In this document: in pieces, positions 54,190 through 62,553 of the stretch
Layout of the letters: the number at the start of each line of letters is the position of its first letter
How positions within the stretch are numbered: the first letter of the stretch is position 1
Assembly (NCBI RefSeq): GCF_002214185.1
Contig: NZ_CP022161.1
Location: 7,943,486 to 8,007,485 of the forward strand
Source: Streptomyces capitiformicae
Lineage (GTDB): Bacteria > Actinomycetota > Actinomycetes > Streptomycetales > Streptomycetaceae
Length of the DNA stretch: 64,000 nucleotides
Direction of reading: 5' to 3'
Position numbers and translations under genes: made by a program
Notes under the pieces: model-generated
Databases searched by the model: none
What the model was told of the DNA's origin: nothing
Seen by the model: the letters and a program-made list of their open reading frames with translations, nothing else

Positions 54190-54606
54190 GTGACGACCGC
54201 TGGACCTGTACGAGGTCGTTCCACCCGGCAGCGGGCAGCCGTGGCCGCGGCACTCGACGAGGTCGACGAGTTCCGCAGTGCGCAGGAGCTCCACGACATG
54301 CTGAAGCACCGCGGTGACTCTGTGGGGCTCACCACCGTGTACCGGACGTTGCAGTCCCTGGCGGACGCGGGTGAGGTCGATGTGCTGCGGACCTCGGACG
54401 GGGAGTCCGTGTATCGGCGGTGCTCCACCGGGGAGCATCACCATCATCTGGTGTGCCGGGTGTGTGGGAAGGCCGTTGAGGTGGAGGGGCCGGCGGTCGA
54501 GAAGTGGGCCGATGCGATTGCTTCTGAGCACGGGTATGTCAATGTGGCCCACACGGTGGAGATCTTCGGCACGTGTGCGGAGTGCGCGGGGGCGTCTGCC
54601 GAGTAG
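54190..54606 (+). CDS. zur: Fur-family zinc uptake regulator Zur
   Basis: 138-residue repressor. The winged helix occupies residues ~15-75 (RQRAAVAAALDEVDEFRSAQ, GLTTVYRTLQSLADAGEVDV). The zinc-binding and dimer domain carries GEHHHHLVCRVCGKAVEVEG and VEIFGTCAECAGASAE, the two CxxC pairs of the structural zinc plus the regulatory His cluster. The start is the GTG at 54190, with GAGGAGG 5 nt upstream. It closes the znuACB operon, 59 bp after znuB. With the Zur box at 51353 this makes a negative feedback loop on zinc uptake. Confidence 0.94.
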   Translation: MTTAGPVRGRSTRQRAAVAAALDEVDEFRSAQELHDMLKHRGDSVGLTTVYRTLQSLADAGEVDVLRTSDGESVYRRCSTGEHHHHLVCRVCGKAVEVEGPAVEKWADAIASEHGYVNVAHTVEIFGTCAECAGASAE

Positions 54607-54611
54607 GGTTC

Positions 54612-54686
54612 GTTTGCGGCTGCCGGTTCGTTGTGGCTTGTCGCGCCCCGCGGCGGAGCCGCACATCGGCACAGCCCCGCGCCCCT
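54612..54686. repeat. Dispersed REP-like intergenic repeat, copy 6 (short form)
   Basis: GCGGCGGAGCCGCACATCGG followed by CACAGCCCCGCGCCCCT, filling the gap between the convergent zur and YcxB-like genes almost completely. Confidence 0.85.
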
Positions 54687-55200
54687 AAGAGCTCAGCCTT
54701 CGTTTGAGAAGTGCTCGGAGGCCGTCCACATCCCTTGTGCCTCGCTTCGGCAGCGGGATCGGCGTCGGCGGGTATGCGTGCGTGGTGAGGAGTACGAAGG
54801 TCCTTCGTGTCTCCTCGTAGCGCGGGATCTCTGACCAGCGGGTCATTCTTTCGGGGCCCCTGGTTGTCGTGGTCGTGACGCCCCACGGGTCCAGAACCGC
54901 ACGGTGCAGCCCTCGCTCGGCCGCCCGTCGATGGAGACGGTGGGCCTGGAGCCAGGGCAGGACGACCAGGCCGACGACCGCCGTACCCGCCATCACCAGA
55001 ACCTGAGTGGCAGGAACCGTACTGCCGAACGTCAGCGATGCGACGGCCACGAAGGCGCTCGCGCCGCCGGAGAAGAGGAGCAGGCCCCGTCCCCAGCGGC
55101 CGAGGGACGAGGCGCGTGCGGAGGCGGTGAGTGCCTCGTGGAACTCACCGACCGTCGGCCGATACACCAGCTCGACGTGCTCCCCATCCGCCTCGGCCAA
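54685..55200 (-). CDS. YcxB-like membrane protein
   Basis: 171 residues. After VELVYRPTVGEFHEALTASA two membrane helices follow (GRGLLLFSGGASAFVAVASL and QVLVMAGTAVVGLVVLPWLQ). The C-terminal PH-like YcxB domain follows (ERGLHRAVLDPWGVTTTTTR, WSEIPRYEETRRTFVLLTTH, then PIPLPKRGTRDVDGLRALLK). It starts with a TTG at 55200 with GGAGGAGGG upstream, placed exactly at the uppS stop, 3 bp away, so it is cotranscribed with uppS. Function of the family is unknown; it resembles the bPH-type membrane domains. Confidence 0.78.
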   Translation of the reverse strand: MAEADGEHVELVYRPTVGEFHEALTASARASSLGRWGRGLLLFSGGASAFVAVASLTFGSTVPATQVLVMAGTAVVGLVVLPWLQAHRLHRRAAERGLHRAVLDPWGVTTTTTRGPERMTRWSEIPRYEETRRTFVLLTTHAYPPTPIPLPKRGTRDVDGLRALLKRRLSS

Positions 55201-55203
55201 AGG

Positions 55204-56043
55204 TCAACCCTCCTCCGTCCGGCCCTCCATCGCCAGCAGTTCCTCGTTCGGGATGGCGCCGCCGAAGCGGCGGTCGCGGGAGGCGAATTCGACGCAGGCT
55301 CGCCAGAGGTCGCGGCGGTCGAAGTCGGGCCAGAGGACGTCCTGGAAGACCATCTCGGCGTAGGCGCTCTGCCAGAGCAGGTAGTTGGAGGTGCGCTGCT
55401 CGCCGCTGGGGCGCAGGAAGAGGTCCACGTCGGGCATGTCGGGGTAGTAGAGGTACTTCGCGAGGGTCTTCTCGTTGACCTTCGACGGGTCGAGGCGGCC
55501 CGCCTTCACGTCCTCGGCGAGGGCCTGCGCGGCGTCGGCGATCTCGGCGCGGCCGCCGTAGTTCATGCAGAAGTACAGGGTGAGCTTGTCGTTGCCCTTG
55601 GTCTGCTCCTGGGCGACCTGGAGCTCCTTGGCGACGGACTTCCACAGCTTGGGCATACGGCCGACCCAGCGGACCCGGATGCCGAGTTCGTCGAGCTGGT
55701 CGCGGGTCTTGCGGATGAAGTCGCGGTTGAAGTTCATGAGGAAGCGGACCTCGTCGGGCGAGCGCTTCCAGTTCTCGGTGGAGAAGGCGTAGAGGGAGAT
55801 GTTGCGGACGCCCATCTCGATCCCGCCCTGGAGTACGTCGAGGACGCGCTCGGCGCCGACCTTGTGGCCTTCCGTGCGCGGCAGTCCGCGCTCCTTCGCC
55901 CAGCGGCCGTTCCCGTCCATGACGATCGCCACATGCTCGGGGATCAGCTCACCGGGGAGCTTCGGCGCGCGGGCGCCGGACGGGTGCGGCTCCGGCGTCC
56001 TGTACTCGCGGCGCTGGCGCCCCAGGATCCCGCGTACGACCAT
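55204..56043 (-). CDS. uppS: Isoprenyl (undecaprenyl-type) diphosphate synthase
   Basis: 279-residue cis-prenyltransferase making the long-chain polyprenyl diphosphate used as carrier lipid for cell-wall synthesis. All family motifs are present: [20 protein letters not shown] with the catalytic Asp, [60 protein letters not shown], and [20 protein letters not shown] followed by AYAEMVF. It lies downstream of recO on the same strand, 50 bp apart, with short tandem repeats between them, and is followed by the coupled YcxB-like gene. Confidence 0.94.
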
Positions 56044-56068: not shown

Positions 56069-56102
56069 TTACTTCTTACTTCTCTTACTTCTCTTACTTC
56101 TC
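56069..56102. repeat. 9-bp tandem repeats over the recO stop codon
   Basis: On the minus strand GAGAAGTAA occurs three times in a row (56102 down to 56076), followed by GAAGTAA. The first copy is the end of recO (Glu-Lys-stop). Each further copy restates an in-frame Glu-Lys-stop. Confidence 0.88.
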
Positions 56103-56840
56103 CACGTACCGAAGCGAGCGCAGGCCACGCTCCAGATGCCAGTGCAGGTACGCGGACACCAGTCCGCTCCCCTCCCTGACGTACCGCGGCTCGCACGCGT
56201 CCGCGGTCTCCCAGTCTCCCGTCAGCAGCGCGCCGAGGAGTTCCAGGGCCTGCGCAGAGGGTACGACGCTGCCGGGCACCCGGCAGTCCACGCAGACGGA
56301 GCCGCCGGCCGCGACCGAGAAGAACCGATTCGGTCCGGGCAGCCCGCACTTCGCGCAGTCGCTGAAGCTGGGGGCGTAGCCGTTGACGGCGAGCGAGCGG
56401 AGCAGGAAGGCGTCGAGAACGAGGTGCGGCGCGTGCTCGCCGCGGGCGAGGGTGCGCAGCCCGCCGACGAGCAACAGGTACTGCTGCACGGCGGGCTCGC
56501 CCTCGTGGTCAGTGAACCGCTCGGCGGTCTCCAGCATGGCCGTCCCGGCGGTGTAGCGGGCGTAGTCGCTGACGATCCCGCCGCCGTACGGAGCGATCGT
56601 CTCGCTCTGCGTGCACAGGGGCAGCCCGCGCCCGATCAGCTCACTGCCCCGCGCGAAGAACTGCACGTCCACATGCGAGAAGGGTTCGAGCCGGGCGCCG
56701 AACTTGGACTTGGTCCGCCGCACTCCCCGGGCCACCGCCCGTACCCGTCCATGGCCTCGGGTGAGCAACGTGATGATCCGGTCCGCTTCTCCCAGCTTCT
56801 GGGTGCGCAAGACGATGCCGTCGTCCCGGAAAAGGCTCAT
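56094..56840 (-). CDS. recO: DNA repair and recombination protein RecO
   Basis: 248 residues. The N-terminal OB fold reads MSLFRDDGIVLRTQKLGEAD, RIITLLTRGHGRVRAVARGV and RRTKSKFGARLEPFSHVDVQ. A helical middle follows, then a zinc motif in DCAKCGLPGPNRFFSVAAGG and SVCVDCRVPG (two CxxC pairs), and a helical C-terminus. It works with RecF/RecR to load RecA on SSB-coated DNA. It is intact, with the family-typical ATG at 56840. Only 16 bp upstream of this ATG the DNA becomes 23S rRNA tail, so its native promoter region is not present in the usual form. Confidence 0.93.
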   Translation of the reverse strand: MSLFRDDGIVLRTQKLGEADRIITLLTRGHGRVRAVARGVRRTKSKFGARLEPFSHVDVQFFARGSELIGRGLPLCTQSETIAPYGGGIVSDYARYTAGTAMLETAERFTDHEGEPAVQQYLLLVGGLRTLARGEHAPHLVLDAFLLRSLAVNGYAPSFSDCAKCGLPGPNRFFSVAAGGSVCVDCRVPGSVVPSAQALELLGALLTGDWETADACEPRYVREGSGLVSAYLHWHLERGLRSLRYVEK

Positions 56841-56856
56841 CGCGCGCCACCACGGA

Positions 56857-56916
56857 GATATGGAAGCCCAGTAATGGGTGGAGTTGACTGGTACTAATAG
56901 GCCGAGGGCTTGTCCT
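56857..56916 (+). rRNA. 3' terminal fragment of 23S rRNA (~60 nt)
   Basis: ATATGGAAGCCC, then GGTGGAGTTGACTGGTACTA and ATAGGCCGAGGGCTTGTCC form the recognisable last helix and 3' end of actinobacterial 23S rRNA. Nothing of the other ~3 kb of 23S or of 16S is present; recO begins at once on the other side. The exact left boundary of the match is judged by eye. Confidence 0.8.
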
Positions 56917-57020
56917 CAGTTGCTCGCGTCCACTGTGTCAGTTCTGAGACAACGAACAGTTGTCGGCTTTGAGCTGAGCATCTAACTGAAGAGTGTGCTT
57001 GTTCGCTCGAAACCAATAGG

Positions 57021-57140
57021 GTTTCGGTGGTCATAGCGTGAGGGAAACGCCCGGTTACATTCCGAACCCGGAAGCTAAGCCTTACAGCGCCGATGGTACT
57101 GCAGGGGGGACCCTGTGGGAGAGTAGGACACCGCCGAACA
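57021..57140 (+). rRNA. rrf: 5S ribosomal RNA
   Basis: Complete ~120-nt 5S rRNA: it starts GTTTCGGTGGTCATAGCGTG, continues CGCCCGGTTACATTCCGAAC and CCGGAAGCTAAGCC, and ends AGTAGGACACCGCCGAACA. The 5' and 3' ends pair as the terminal stem (CGGTGGT with ACACCGCCG). The spacing of ~105 nt from the 23S tail is normal for a Streptomyces rrn operon. It may not be expressed here, because the rest of the operon and its promoters are missing upstream. Confidence 0.95.
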
Positions 57141-57149
57141 ATCTTTGAA

Positions 57150-57199
57150 GGACCCCTGGTCACCAGCGTTCAGCTGGGACCAGGGGTCCTTTTGTTTTT
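57150..57199 (+). terminator. rrn operon terminator
   Basis: GGACCCCTGGTC (57150-57161) pairs with GACCAGGGGTCC (57178-57189), followed by TTTTGTTTTT. It is a classic rho-independent terminator directly after the 5S rRNA and before the next gene. Confidence 0.92.
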
Positions 57200-57233
57200 A
57201 CAATGCTTGCGGTACCGAAGACAGGAGTCACCG

Positions 57234-59180
57234 ATGTCCACCAACTCTCCCGACGATCGACCGGAGCGCGACCAGCGGCGACGGGACAGTGGTGACCGTG
57301 GTGGCTACCGGGGTGGACCGCGTCGGGACAGCGACCGACGCGACAACGACCGTGGTGGCTACGGGCGTCGTGACGATCGCCGCGGTGATGACCGTCGAGG
57401 TGACGACCGCGGTGGCTTCCGTCGCGGCGATGATCGCGGTGGCTTCCGTCGTGATGACAGCCGTGGCGGCGAGCGTGGCGGATTCCGTGGGCGTGACGAC
57501 CGTCGTGAGGGTGACCGTGGGCCTCGTCCCGCCTTCCGTCGCGACGACCGCCCCGGGGGACCGCGTCGTGACGACCGCCCCGGGGGACCGCGTCGTGACG
57601 ACCGCGACCGGGACCGTGACCGTGGCTTCCGGCGGGACGGAGACCGTCCTGGTTTCCGTCGCGATGACCGGCGTGACGAGCGGCGTGACGAGCGGCGTGA
57701 CGACGACCGCGGTGGCTTCGGCCGTCGTGACGACCGTCCCGCGTTCCGCCGTGATGATCGTCGTGAGGACCGGCGTGACAGCGGAGACCGGGGCGGCTTC
57801 CGCCGCGACGACCGGGACCGGGACCGTGATCGTGGCTTCCGGCGGGACGCCCGTGACGAGCGCCGTGACGGCGACCGTCCCTCGTACCGTCGTGACGACG
57901 ATCGCGGTGGTTTCCGTCGCGATGACAGCCGTGGTGAGCAGCGAGGTGGGTTCCGCGGACGTGACGACCGGCGCGATGACCGGCGTGGGGACGACCGCGG
58001 TGGACGTCCGCCGTTCCGACGTGACGACCGGCGCGACGATCGGCGGGACGCGGATCGGCCGGCCTTCCGTCGCGATGACCGGCGTGACGACCGCGGTGAC
58101 CGCCGGGACAGTGACCGTCCCTCGTACCGTCGTGACGACGACCGCGGTGGTTTCCGGCGGGACGACAGCCGTGGTGGCGAGCGTGGCGGATTCCGTGGCC
58201 GTGACGATCGCGGCCGTGACGATCGCGGTCGTGGTCCCCGGCGTGACGACCGCGGCGGTCGGCCCGGTGGTTTCCGTGGGCGGGACGACCGGCGGGGCGG
58301 TGACGACCGGCGCGGTGGCGGGCGCTTCCGTGATGAGCGGGACCGGGACCGCGAGCCGATCAAGCGGCTGCCGATCCCGGAGGACGTCACTGGCGAGGAG
58401 ATCGACAAGGACGTACGGCAGGAGCTGCAGAGCCTGCCCAAGACGCTCGCCGACGACGTCGCCAAGAACCTGGTGATGGTCGCCCGGCTCATCGATGAGG
58501 ACCCCGAGGGCGCGTACGGCTACTCCAGGGTGGCCTTGCGGCTGGCGTCGCGTGTCGCCGCCGTACGCGAGGCGGCCGGCTTCGCCGCGTACGCGAACCA
58601 GAAGTACAGCGAGGCGCTCGCCGAGTTCCGGGCCGCGCGGCGGATGACCGGCAACGTGGACCTGTGGCCCGTGATGGCCGACTGCGAGCGCGGTCTCGGG
58701 CGGCCCGAGAAGGCGCTCGACATGGCCGGGGCGCCCGAGGTGCACAAGCTGGACAAGGCCGGCCAGGTCGAGATGCGGCTTGTCGCGGCCGGTGCCCGGC
58801 GTGACATGGACCAGCTCGACGCGGCCATCGTGACCCTGCAGAGCCCTGAGCTGGCCTCCAACTCCGTACAGCCGTGGACCGCGCGGCTGCGGTACGCGTA
58901 CGCCGACGCGCTGCTCGCGGCCGGGCGGGCGGACGAGGCGCGGGAGTGGTTCGCCAAGGCCGTCGAAGCCGACAAGGACGGCAGCACCGACGCGTCGGAC
59001 AGGCTCGCCGAGATGGACGGCGTCGAGTTCGTCGATGTCCTCGACGACAGCGAGGCCGACCAGGCGGGCGACGGCGAGCCGCAGATTCCGTCCGCAGCAG
59101 CGGATGACGCGGATGACACGGATGACGAGACCGTCGACGAGGACAAGGTCGACGAGGCCGTCAAGGACGACAAGGACTGA
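57234..59180 (+). CDS. Arg/Asp/Gly-repeat protein with C-terminal TPR-like domain
   Basis: 648 residues. Residues ~10-390 are a low-complexity repeat region almost wholly of Arg, Asp and Gly with some Phe and Pro: recurring DDRGGFRRDDSRGGERGGFR, GRDDRR, RPAFRRDDRR and DRDRDRGFRRD units. It resembles eukaryotic RGG boxes that bind RNA. Residues ~400-600 are helical and TPR-like: GEEIDKDVRQELQSLPKTLA, DDVAKNLVMVARLIDEDPEG, YANQKYSEALAEFRAARRMT, YADALLAAGRADEAREWFAK. The tail is acidic. The ATG at 57234 has AGGAG upstream. The other long frames across the repeat are shadows of the GAC/CGN codon bias. I infer RNA binding from composition and from the position behind the 5S gene. Confidence 0.85.
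   Translation: MSTNSPDDRPERDQRRRDSGDRGGYRGGPRRDSDRRDNDRGGYGRRDDRRGDDRRGDDRGGFRRGDDRGGFRRDDSRGGERGGFRGRDDRREGDRGPRPAFRRDDRPGGPRRDDRPGGPRRDDRDRDRDRGFRRDGDRPGFRRDDRRDERRDERRDDDRGGFGRRDDRPAFRRDDRREDRRDSGDRGGFRRDDRDRDRDRGFRRDARDERRDGDRPSYRRDDDRGGFRRDDSRGEQRGGFRGRDDRRDDRRGDDRGGRPPFRRDDRRDDRRDADRPAFRRDDRRDDRGDRRDSDRPSYRRDDDRGGFRRDDSRGGERGGFRGRDDRGRDDRGRGPRRDDRGGRPGGFRGRDDRRGGDDRRGGGRFRDERDRDREPIKRLPIPEDVTGEEIDKDVRQELQSLPKTLADDVAKNLVMVARLIDEDPEGAYGYSRVALRLASRVAAVREAAGFAAYANQKYSEALAEFRAARRMTGNVDLWPVMADCERGLGRPEKALDMAGAPEVHKLDKAGQVEMRLVAAGARRDMDQLDAAIVTLQSPELASNSVQPWTARLRYAYADALLAAGRADEAREWFAKAVEADKDGSTDASDRLAEMDGVEFVDVLDDSEADQAGDGEPQIPSAAADDADDTDDETVDEDKVDEAVKDDKD
57270..58370 (+). repeat. Coding minisatellite of GGTGGCTTCCGTCG-type units
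   Basis: Degenerate in-frame repeats of about 15-75 bp encode the RGG/RDD region. The longest recurring block (DDRGGFRRDDSRG, then ERGGFRGRDDR) appears three times, near 57420-57520, 57900-58000 and 58130-58230. Because every unit keeps the frame, length can vary between strains. Confidence 0.85.
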
Positions 59181-59257: not shown

Positions 59258-60550
59258 TCAGAGTTCCAGCGCGCGCAGTACCAGTCCCGACGCCGGCTTC
59301 GGGCCGAAGGACGTCGACTTGCGGGGCATCTTGATGCCCTGGCGGGCCAGGTCGCGTACGACCTCCTCGCGGACCGGGTGCATCAGGACGGCCGTGCCGC
59401 CGTCCCGTTCCGCCTTCTCGACGGTGGCCGCCGTGTCGTGGATGTACGCGATGTGTGCCGGTGAGTCCTCGGGGATGTGCCAGACGTGGTGGAGGAGAGT
59501 GGCGTGCAGGACGGTCGCGTCGAGGGTGCGCCAGGCGGCCGGGTGGTCGGCGGGGATCGTACGGGCGAGGAGGTCCGGGTCCGGGTGGTCGATCAGATGG
59601 AAGGAGCCGTCGCCCGCGAGGAGGAAGGCGTTGCCTGCGGTGGCCGCGTCCGCCAGGGCGTCCAGGGCCTCGGGGAGCGGTACCGCCAGGTGTTGTACGC
59701 GGAAGAGGCCGTCCAGGGCGCTCAGGGCGTCGGCCACCGGCAGTTGGTGCAGCAGGCGGTGGATGGCGCGGACGCGCAGGGGGTGGCGGGCGGTGTCCAC
59801 CAGGAGGACCAGGCCGTAGTCCCAGGGGCTGGGCGTGGGGTGCTCCGCGCGTAGCCGCAGGTACGTCGCCCAGCGGTGGTGGCCGTCGGCTATGAGGGCC
59901 TGGTGGCGGGCGAGGTCCGACTGGATCTCGGCGAGATCGGCGGGGTCGGTGACCGCCCACAGACGGTGGCTGAAGCCGTCCTCCGTGGTCGTCGCGAGGA
60001 GAGGGGGGCGTTGCGTGGTGCGCTCGACCACGGCTGTCGCGCCGGTCGTGGAACGGTTGCCCCGGTAGGTGAGGAGCAGAGGCTCCAGGTTGGCGGAGGT
60101 GGCGCGCATCAGGGCCGCGCGGTCGGCGATGACGTGGGGTATGACGTCCTCGTGGGGGAGGACCACGCCGTCGGCGGGCTCCGAGAGACGCAGGGCGCCT
60201 ATGAGGCCGCGCTGGAGGATGGTGCCGTCGGCCTGCTCGTAGACGTAGAGGCCGGGCTCGGTGTCGGGGGCCAGGACGCCCTCGGAGAGCCAGTGGCGCA
60301 GGGTCTCGGCTGCTTGTTTGTTGCGGGCGTCGGGGGTACTGGCCTGGGGGAGTATCAGGCGGACGATGTTGTGCGGGTCGGCCGATTCGAGGTGGAGCAG
60401 ACCGTCCGGCCGTACGACCACGTCGTACGGCGGTGACGTCACGGCGGCCAGGCTGCCGACCCGGTCGGGGGCGTAGCGAAGGCCCCGGAACGGGGTCAGT
60501 TCGAGGCCGCTGCGCGCCGGGATCTCCTCCGCGGGACCTGCGTAGTTCAT
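59258..60550 (-). CDS. DUF1015 family protein
   Basis: 430 residues, the usual length. Conserved pieces: LTPFRGLRYAPDRVGSLAAV and TSPPYDVV near the N-terminus, NIVRLILPQ, GLIGALRLSEPADGVVLPHE, the family hallmark HQALIADGHHRWATYLRLRA, and DPDLLARTIPADHPAAWRTL followed by DATVLHATLL. The family is widespread (sometimes called SerC-like or HTH-linked) with no established reaction; the His-His in ADGHHR may be catalytic. The ATG at 60550 is divergent from the HAD gene across a region with three 12-bp repeats. From memory it often lies near the HAD, SCP2 and tlyA genes in Streptomyces, as here. Confidence 0.85.
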   Translation of the reverse strand: MNYAGPAEEIPARSGLELTPFRGLRYAPDRVGSLAAVTSPPYDVVVRPDGLLHLESADPHNIVRLILPQASTPDARNKQAAETLRHWLSEGVLAPDTEPGLYVYEQADGTILQRGLIGALRLSEPADGVVLPHEDVIPHVIADRAALMRATSANLEPLLLTYRGNRSTTGATAVVERTTQRPPLLATTTEDGFSHRLWAVTDPADLAEIQSDLARHQALIADGHHRWATYLRLRAEHPTPSPWDYGLVLLVDTARHPLRVRAIHRLLHQLPVADALSALDGLFRVQHLAVPLPEALDALADAATAGNAFLLAGDGSFHLIDHPDPDLLARTIPADHPAAWRTLDATVLHATLLHHVWHIPEDSPAHIAYIHDTAATVEKAERDGGTAVLMHPVREEVVRDLARQGIKMPRKSTSFGPKPASGLVLRALEL

Positions 60551-61876: not shown

Positions 61877-62553
61877 GTGTTGGTCGACAGTCCCCCGGAA
61901 CCGAGCGCGGAGACCGCCCCCGCGCCCCCAGAGCCGCCGGGCGATGCGTGCCGTCGGTCTCGTCGTGGCCCTCGCGATCCTCGTCCTGGTCGCGCTGGCG
62001 AGCATCGGGATCGGCGCGAAAGAGCTGTCGCTGGAGCAGGTCTGGCACGGACTGTTCGACGACACGGGGACGTACGGCGACGTCGTCGTCGGGGAGCGGA
62101 TCTCGCGCACCCTCCTCGGGCTGCTCGCCGGCGCCGCCGTCGGTCTGGCCGGTGCCGTGCTGCAGGCGCTCACCCGTAATCCGCTGGCCGACCCGGGTCT
62201 GCTCGGCATCGCGGGAGCGTCGGCCGCGGTGGTCACCGCCATCACCTACGTCGGTGTCACCTCGCTGACCGGGTATGTGTGGTTCGCGTTCGTCGGCGCG
62301 GCGGCGGTCGGGGCGCTGGTGTGGTTCCTCGGCGGCAGCCGGGGGGCGACGCCCGTACGGCTCGCCCCCGCGGGCACGGCGATCAGTGCCGCGCTCTACG
62401 GCTACTCCAGGCCGTGATGATCATGGATGACGCGGCGCTCTCCAAGATGCCTTCGGGGCCGACCAGCTGCCCGTCGGTGTCGTCACCGGCGTACTCGGCG
62501 GTGTCTGTCTGCTGTGGCTGCTGGTCACCGAGCGGAAGGCCAGGCGGATATGA
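61877..62553 (+). pseudogene. Fused remnant of two FecCD siderophore permease genes
   Basis: The GTG at 61877 begins LVDSPPEPSAETAPAPPEPP. A frame change near 61940 leads into the first FecCD permease (AVGLVVALAILVLVALASIG, RISRTLLGLLAGAAVGLAGA, LGGSRGATPVRLAPAGTAIS). After ALYGY one base is missing, and LQAVMIMDDAALSKM follows. At ~62450 the sequence jumps to the C-terminus of a second permease: FGADQLPVGVVTGVLGGVCL and LWLLVTERKARRI, stop 62551-62553. The last half of permease 1 and nearly all of permease 2 (roughly 1.5 kb expected) are gone. Neither protein can function. The ATPase that follows is intact. Confidence 0.8.

Follow-up and report, generated by a model that had tools for sequence, protein, structure and literature searches.

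Introduction

Misjoins at collapsed rRNA-operon repeats are a familiar fault of draft genome assemblies. The locus described here resembles them in that contigs appear to end just inside an rrn operon, pieces of rRNA are left over, and foreign sequence abuts the break. It differs from draft-genome misjoins in that the joins contain no N bases and the record resembles one finished chromosome. The second point of comparison is the regular set of six rrn loci in Streptomyces. Here the right flank of one such locus is the same, with a 5S rRNA gene followed by genes for a TPR protein and a DUF1015 protein, whereas the 16S and 23S genes are missing.

The stretch of DNA that we analyzed, called the window below, is 64,000 nucleotides long and covers 7,943,486-8,007,485 of a single 10,989,391-bp sequence with a completeness figure of 99.97%. 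Within it, recO lies directly against the 3' remnant of an rrn operon. A preliminary description of the sequence proposed either a rearrangement that consumed an rrn operon or a false join in the assembly. Judging from sequence comparison, the contact is almost certainly (probability about 0.98) an unmarked false join at 56855/56856 that brings together two unrelated Streptomyces pieces.

Results

A 23S rRNA remnant abuts recO

The features around the junction are as follows, in window coordinates.

56094..56840, minus strand: recO, complete (Pfam RecO_N and RecO_C); end of the putative left-hand contig
56834..56855, minus strand: 22 bp identical to genome positions 2,216,234-2,216,255, the true neighbour (exact match)
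56855..56856, no strand: almost certain false join with zero filler bases (sequence comparison)
56856..56917, plus strand: last ~62 nt of 23S rRNA; ragged end of the putative right-hand contig (relatives' alignments)
57023..57139, plus strand: 5S rRNA, complete (Rfam match)
57147..57195 (about), plus strand: terminator-like palindrome with a T run (read off the sequence; self-match)
57234..59180, plus strand: TPR protein with a long Arg/Asp-rich N-terminal part; usual right neighbour of this rrn operon
59258..60550, minus strand: DUF1015 protein; usual right neighbour of this rrn operon

Alignments of the rrn locus in closed relatives begin at window position 56856 or 56857, and the 62-nt length of the 23S remnant is set by the end of the 23S gene in one of them, G252. 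The remnant is followed by a 5S gene that is complete (104.8 bits, E 6.3e-22) and is the sole match above Rfam gathering scores within the window, and then by the terminator; there is no 16S or other 23S sequence. The preliminary description, which reported about 60 nt of 23S tail with 5S and terminator, had therefore read the remnant correctly. It was also right that the remnant adjoins recO, although 15 bp (56841-56855), and not the 16 bp it gave, separate the recO ATG from the start of the rrn sequence. To the left of recO, 54590-55222 holds about 0.5 kb that is extra relative to several relatives (e.g., L091), including an open frame of 171 residues (54685-55200, minus strand).

The genes on the two sides had been assigned to different map positions, and related genomes bear this out. 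In all 39 Streptomyces genomes that carry recO and the DUF1015 gene on one contig, to which the count is confined, the two are 0.72-3.73 Mb apart (median 0.95 Mb). Outside the genus, the distance is 1.9 Mb in G038 and 0.19 Mb in G045. The DUF1015 gene lies 2-4 kb from a contig end in many drafts, as would be expected of an rrn operon left unassembled there.

rRNA operons are incomplete throughout the assembly

Family searches found no complete 23S or 16S gene in the 10.99 Mb (12 and 26 candidates scored, respectively), and the fragments that they did find are confined to 10.93-10.99 Mb. Alignment to relatives resolves these into about 1.37 kb of 23S, 0.63 kb comprising a 23S start and spacer, and 0.56 kb of 16S. 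In 10 closed relatives, a search of this kind placed 23S at six loci each, as 57 full-length matches plus three loci with partial matches alone. In G064, G217 and G007, one of the six loci is partial or split, which may be a limit of the search.

The 5S genes tell a similar story. Beyond the copy in the window there are five, which match over just 83, 78, 71, 46 and 42 nt, are truncated at five different bases and continue into sequence that is unlike after each.

Genome positions 9,442,292; 8,916,751; 3,779,646; 6,275,103; 2,606,082: cut 5S copies

Two of the five score above threshold in cmscan (42.4 and 50.3 bits, versus 104.8 for the whole 5S) because the program aligns through the unlike sequence. 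Judged by eye, two of the cut copies run into apparent glycosyl-hydrolase genes. No N bases occur in the 28 stretches checked. The other rrn copies of this assembly are thus incomplete in the same way as the one in the window. With the rrn set incomplete and the other 5S copies cut, the 23S tail in the window would therefore be the longest of six contig ends that enter unassembled rrn operons.

A second likely silent join or deletion lies at window 62449-62457, where relatives are about 1.4 kb longer. A FecCD permease is cut there (model positions 1-145 of 311), a second permease is mostly absent, and the frame of the first breaks by one base about 45 nt before the site. The roughly 1.4 kb absent at window ~62,450 was not found in 19 stretches of the strain's own genome.

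The recO end overlaps a leuA-linked piece at 2.216 Mb

The 22-bp segment at 56834-56855, which consists of the last 15 nt of an open reading frame leading into recO (the leader ORF, described below) and the first 7 nt of recO itself, occurs at one other site only, 2,216,234-2,216,255, with up to two mismatches allowed. That site is the end of a stretch linked to leuA (2,193,494-2,195,182). From leuA to 2,216,255, the stretch shows broad, gapped collinearity with the region between leuA and recO in relatives. In all eight relatives searched for leuA, the gene lies upstream of recO on the same strand, roughly 1 to 38 kb away; with the pieces rejoined, the distance here would be 21 kb.

Rejoining at the 22-bp overlap restores collinearity. 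A single alignment spans the junction in 9 of 12 relatives, extending over 891 nt without gaps in G252 (92.4% identity) and, with one gap each, over 905 nt in G132 and 1087 nt in G217. The rejoined sequence aligns as two pieces in the other three, G278, L140 and L147, because their recO has no leader copy. In the sequence as assembled, by comparison, the relatives' alignments end at the junction from both sides.

The leuA side carries a diverged second recO start (61/68 nt identical), for which a mixture of two strains in the assembly or a decayed recO was considered. Both ideas were dropped because relatives carry the same upstream copy directly before recO and because the ends rejoin. In the assembly, the leuA side is fused at 2,216,255/2,216,256 to an open frame of about 899 codons, rich in Pro, Ala and Gln, that has no start at the join.

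The 5' flank of the rrn operon lies at 5.88 Mb

A full 16S-23S-5S operon precedes the TPR and DUF1015 genes in each of the seven relatives fetched with enough flank (G278, G252, L092, L094, L096, L102 and L109), of which the first two rank nearest in DUF1015 (90 and 89% of residues). None of the seven has a 5S gene without a preceding 23S at this place, and the idea that the truncated arrangement might be an old feature kept among relatives finds no support in them.

The stretch before 16S in the relatives' operon, which includes a methylpurine-DNA glycosylase gene, matches 5,870,074-5,879,412 of the strain's own sequence in three pieces, at 91-92% to G252. The match stops about 200 nt short of the 16S start. 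At 5,879,412/5,879,413 (9413/9414 in L264), the flank runs directly into the middle of rpoA, whose frame at the join starts at position 38 of 74 in the RNA_pol_L model and continues into the alpha C-terminal domain. In this sequence, 2.1 Mb therefore separate the flanks of a single operon, each of which is attached to something foreign. Short matches beside a 16S piece (8,965,584 and 8,063,844) were rejected as rrn leaders; the upstream part of the query was unlike the relatives' rrn, and the loci of the two matches (L106, L107) gave no rRNA match.

These positions bear on a simple alternative, in which the contig order is right, recO truly adjoins this rrn operon in the strain and the operon body alone is missing. 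Such an arrangement would require just an unfilled gap of about 5 kb. However, the recO contig end overlaps the leuA-linked piece, the 5' side of the operon is the methylpurine-glycosylase locus, and none of the 39 genomes has recO and DUF1015 closer together than 0.72 Mb. We regard this explanation as highly improbable.

The other alternative is a real inversion or translocation, with breakpoints just before recO and inside an rrn operon, of which the 16S and most of the 23S were lost. The presence of the same 22 bp at both junctions could stem from a staggered break, and in principle this duplication at two breakpoints is a point against a false join. Moreover, the sites at 2.2 and 8.0 Mb would fall in different halves of the chromosome, as do the breakpoints of common origin-centred inversions. 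An inversion was weighed, given the 22-mer at both sites and the second recO start on the leuA side, and was dropped when the ends proved to rejoin. The reciprocal junctions do not link the other halves: the leuA side leads into an unrelated open frame and the 5' flank of the operon into the middle of rpoA, an essential gene. A rearrangement that consumed one rrn operon, as the preliminary description had suggested, also sits poorly with an assembly that holds no complete rrn operon, in which five further 5S copies are truncated and each of the two broken loci rejoins elsewhere. With no intact rrn, with the reciprocal ends not joined to each other and with the essential rpoA cut at the sister join, the rearrangement reading fails; we give it next to no chance.

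The false join that the preliminary description named as its other option is now backed directly by the sequence to either side of the junction, through the 22-bp overlap and the 5' flank at 5.88 Mb. The synteny comparison that it recommended points the same way: the recO side fits the leuA piece (9 of 12) and the rrn side follows a full operon (7 of 7). For either side of the junction, the true neighbour lies at another place in this assembly.

An upstream open reading frame may lead translation of recO

In the window, the 15 bp before recO (56841-56855) form the last part of a leader ORF. This ORF, whose stop overlaps the recO start, copies the N-terminus of RecO. Its position here and the loci at which we found leaders are listed below.

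Window 56841-56855 with genome positions 2,216,121-2,216,248: own recO leader ORF
L155, L161, L170, L184, L200, L202, L209, L213, L220, L225, L229, L233, L241, L243, L245 and others: leader loci

The arrangement recurs within the genus, in rows that represent related species and are not independent. Of 126 distinct recO loci, 99 have the motif (G/C)A(G/C)AATG 3-6 nt ahead of the recO start and 27 lack it there; this set includes our own locus in its rejoined form in place of the window as assembled (L031). With L031 kept, 28 rows lack the motif at that place. In 25 of these it lies farther upstream, ahead of an ORF of 9-51 codons whose TGA stop overlaps the start of recO. The remaining three comprise L031 and two loci in which several copies follow one another (L235 and L245). 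The copies in L245 (G411) are spaced at 128 nt.

The leader start recognisably copies the recO start in 17 of 107 loci, and in all 17 the stop ends at recO base +4. Because recO starts with ATGA or GTGA in every one of 127 rows, an overlapping TGA is always available, and the evidence for a leader is its frame and its openness. In 25 of 26 measurable loci the distance from leader start to recO start equals 2 modulo 3, with 12 different values between 26 and 152 nt; only L235, with its two copies in series, departs from this. For comparison, among the 99 loci without a leader, 93, 65 and 48 keep the corresponding frame open for 27, 60 and 129 nt, respectively.

Across codons 1-22 of recO, the share of synonymous codons that differ is 0.154 where a leader is absent (60 of 109 loci used, one of them our own window as assembled), versus 0.336 in the 17 loci that have one; elsewhere in recO the figure is 0.20-0.45. 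This suggests, from codon comparison, that a constraint moves with the leader. Against this, the distance to the common start is 0 to 23 of 68 nt (mean 7.5) for leaders and averages 6.5 for the recO starts behind them, so that leaders are no less divergent. Folding gave no sign of special structure in the leader region (-74.9 kcal/mol, versus a mean of -71.8 with sd 4.3 in 100 simple shuffles).

We infer two roles: the motif would be the -10 element of a leaderless transcript, and the GGNGGTG ahead of recO a Shine-Dalgarno site. There is an even chance that this is a real leader, 9-51 codons long and in many species repeating the first ~22 codons of RecO in tandem, that lies behind the motif otherwise found immediately before recO. 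Its stop overlap would couple translation of recO, and it may swap a leaderless start for a coupled one, setting the amount of RecO. The portions of the literature covered by a limited search, including parts of PMC11077062 and PMC8346170, contain no description of a recO leader. A section of PMC11077062 reports a recO transcript fragment of about 200 nt bound to RNA polymerase in Mycobacterium smegmatis and shows no link to a leader.

Discussion

The record is probably a pseudo-chromosome, built from contigs of short-read origin that were placed plainly end to end with no N spacers. If the rrn repeats were left unassembled, contigs reaching them would stop shortly inside. The contig with the 5S, TPR and DUF1015 genes, extending 62 nt into 23S, would then have been set against an unrelated contig whose end lies 15 bp before recO. 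The strain itself would have the leuA-linked contig next to the recO end, and its TPR and DUF1015 genes would follow a complete 16S-23S-5S operon.

A seemingly finished chromosome record with silent joins leads to wrong synteny, wrong rrn copy number, wrong inversion counts and wrong gene-neighbourhood predictions; even rpoA is split at the sister join. The 22-bp overlap makes the assembly fault directly testable with reads. The recO leader, in turn, offers a small, testable point on the expression of a DNA-repair gene.
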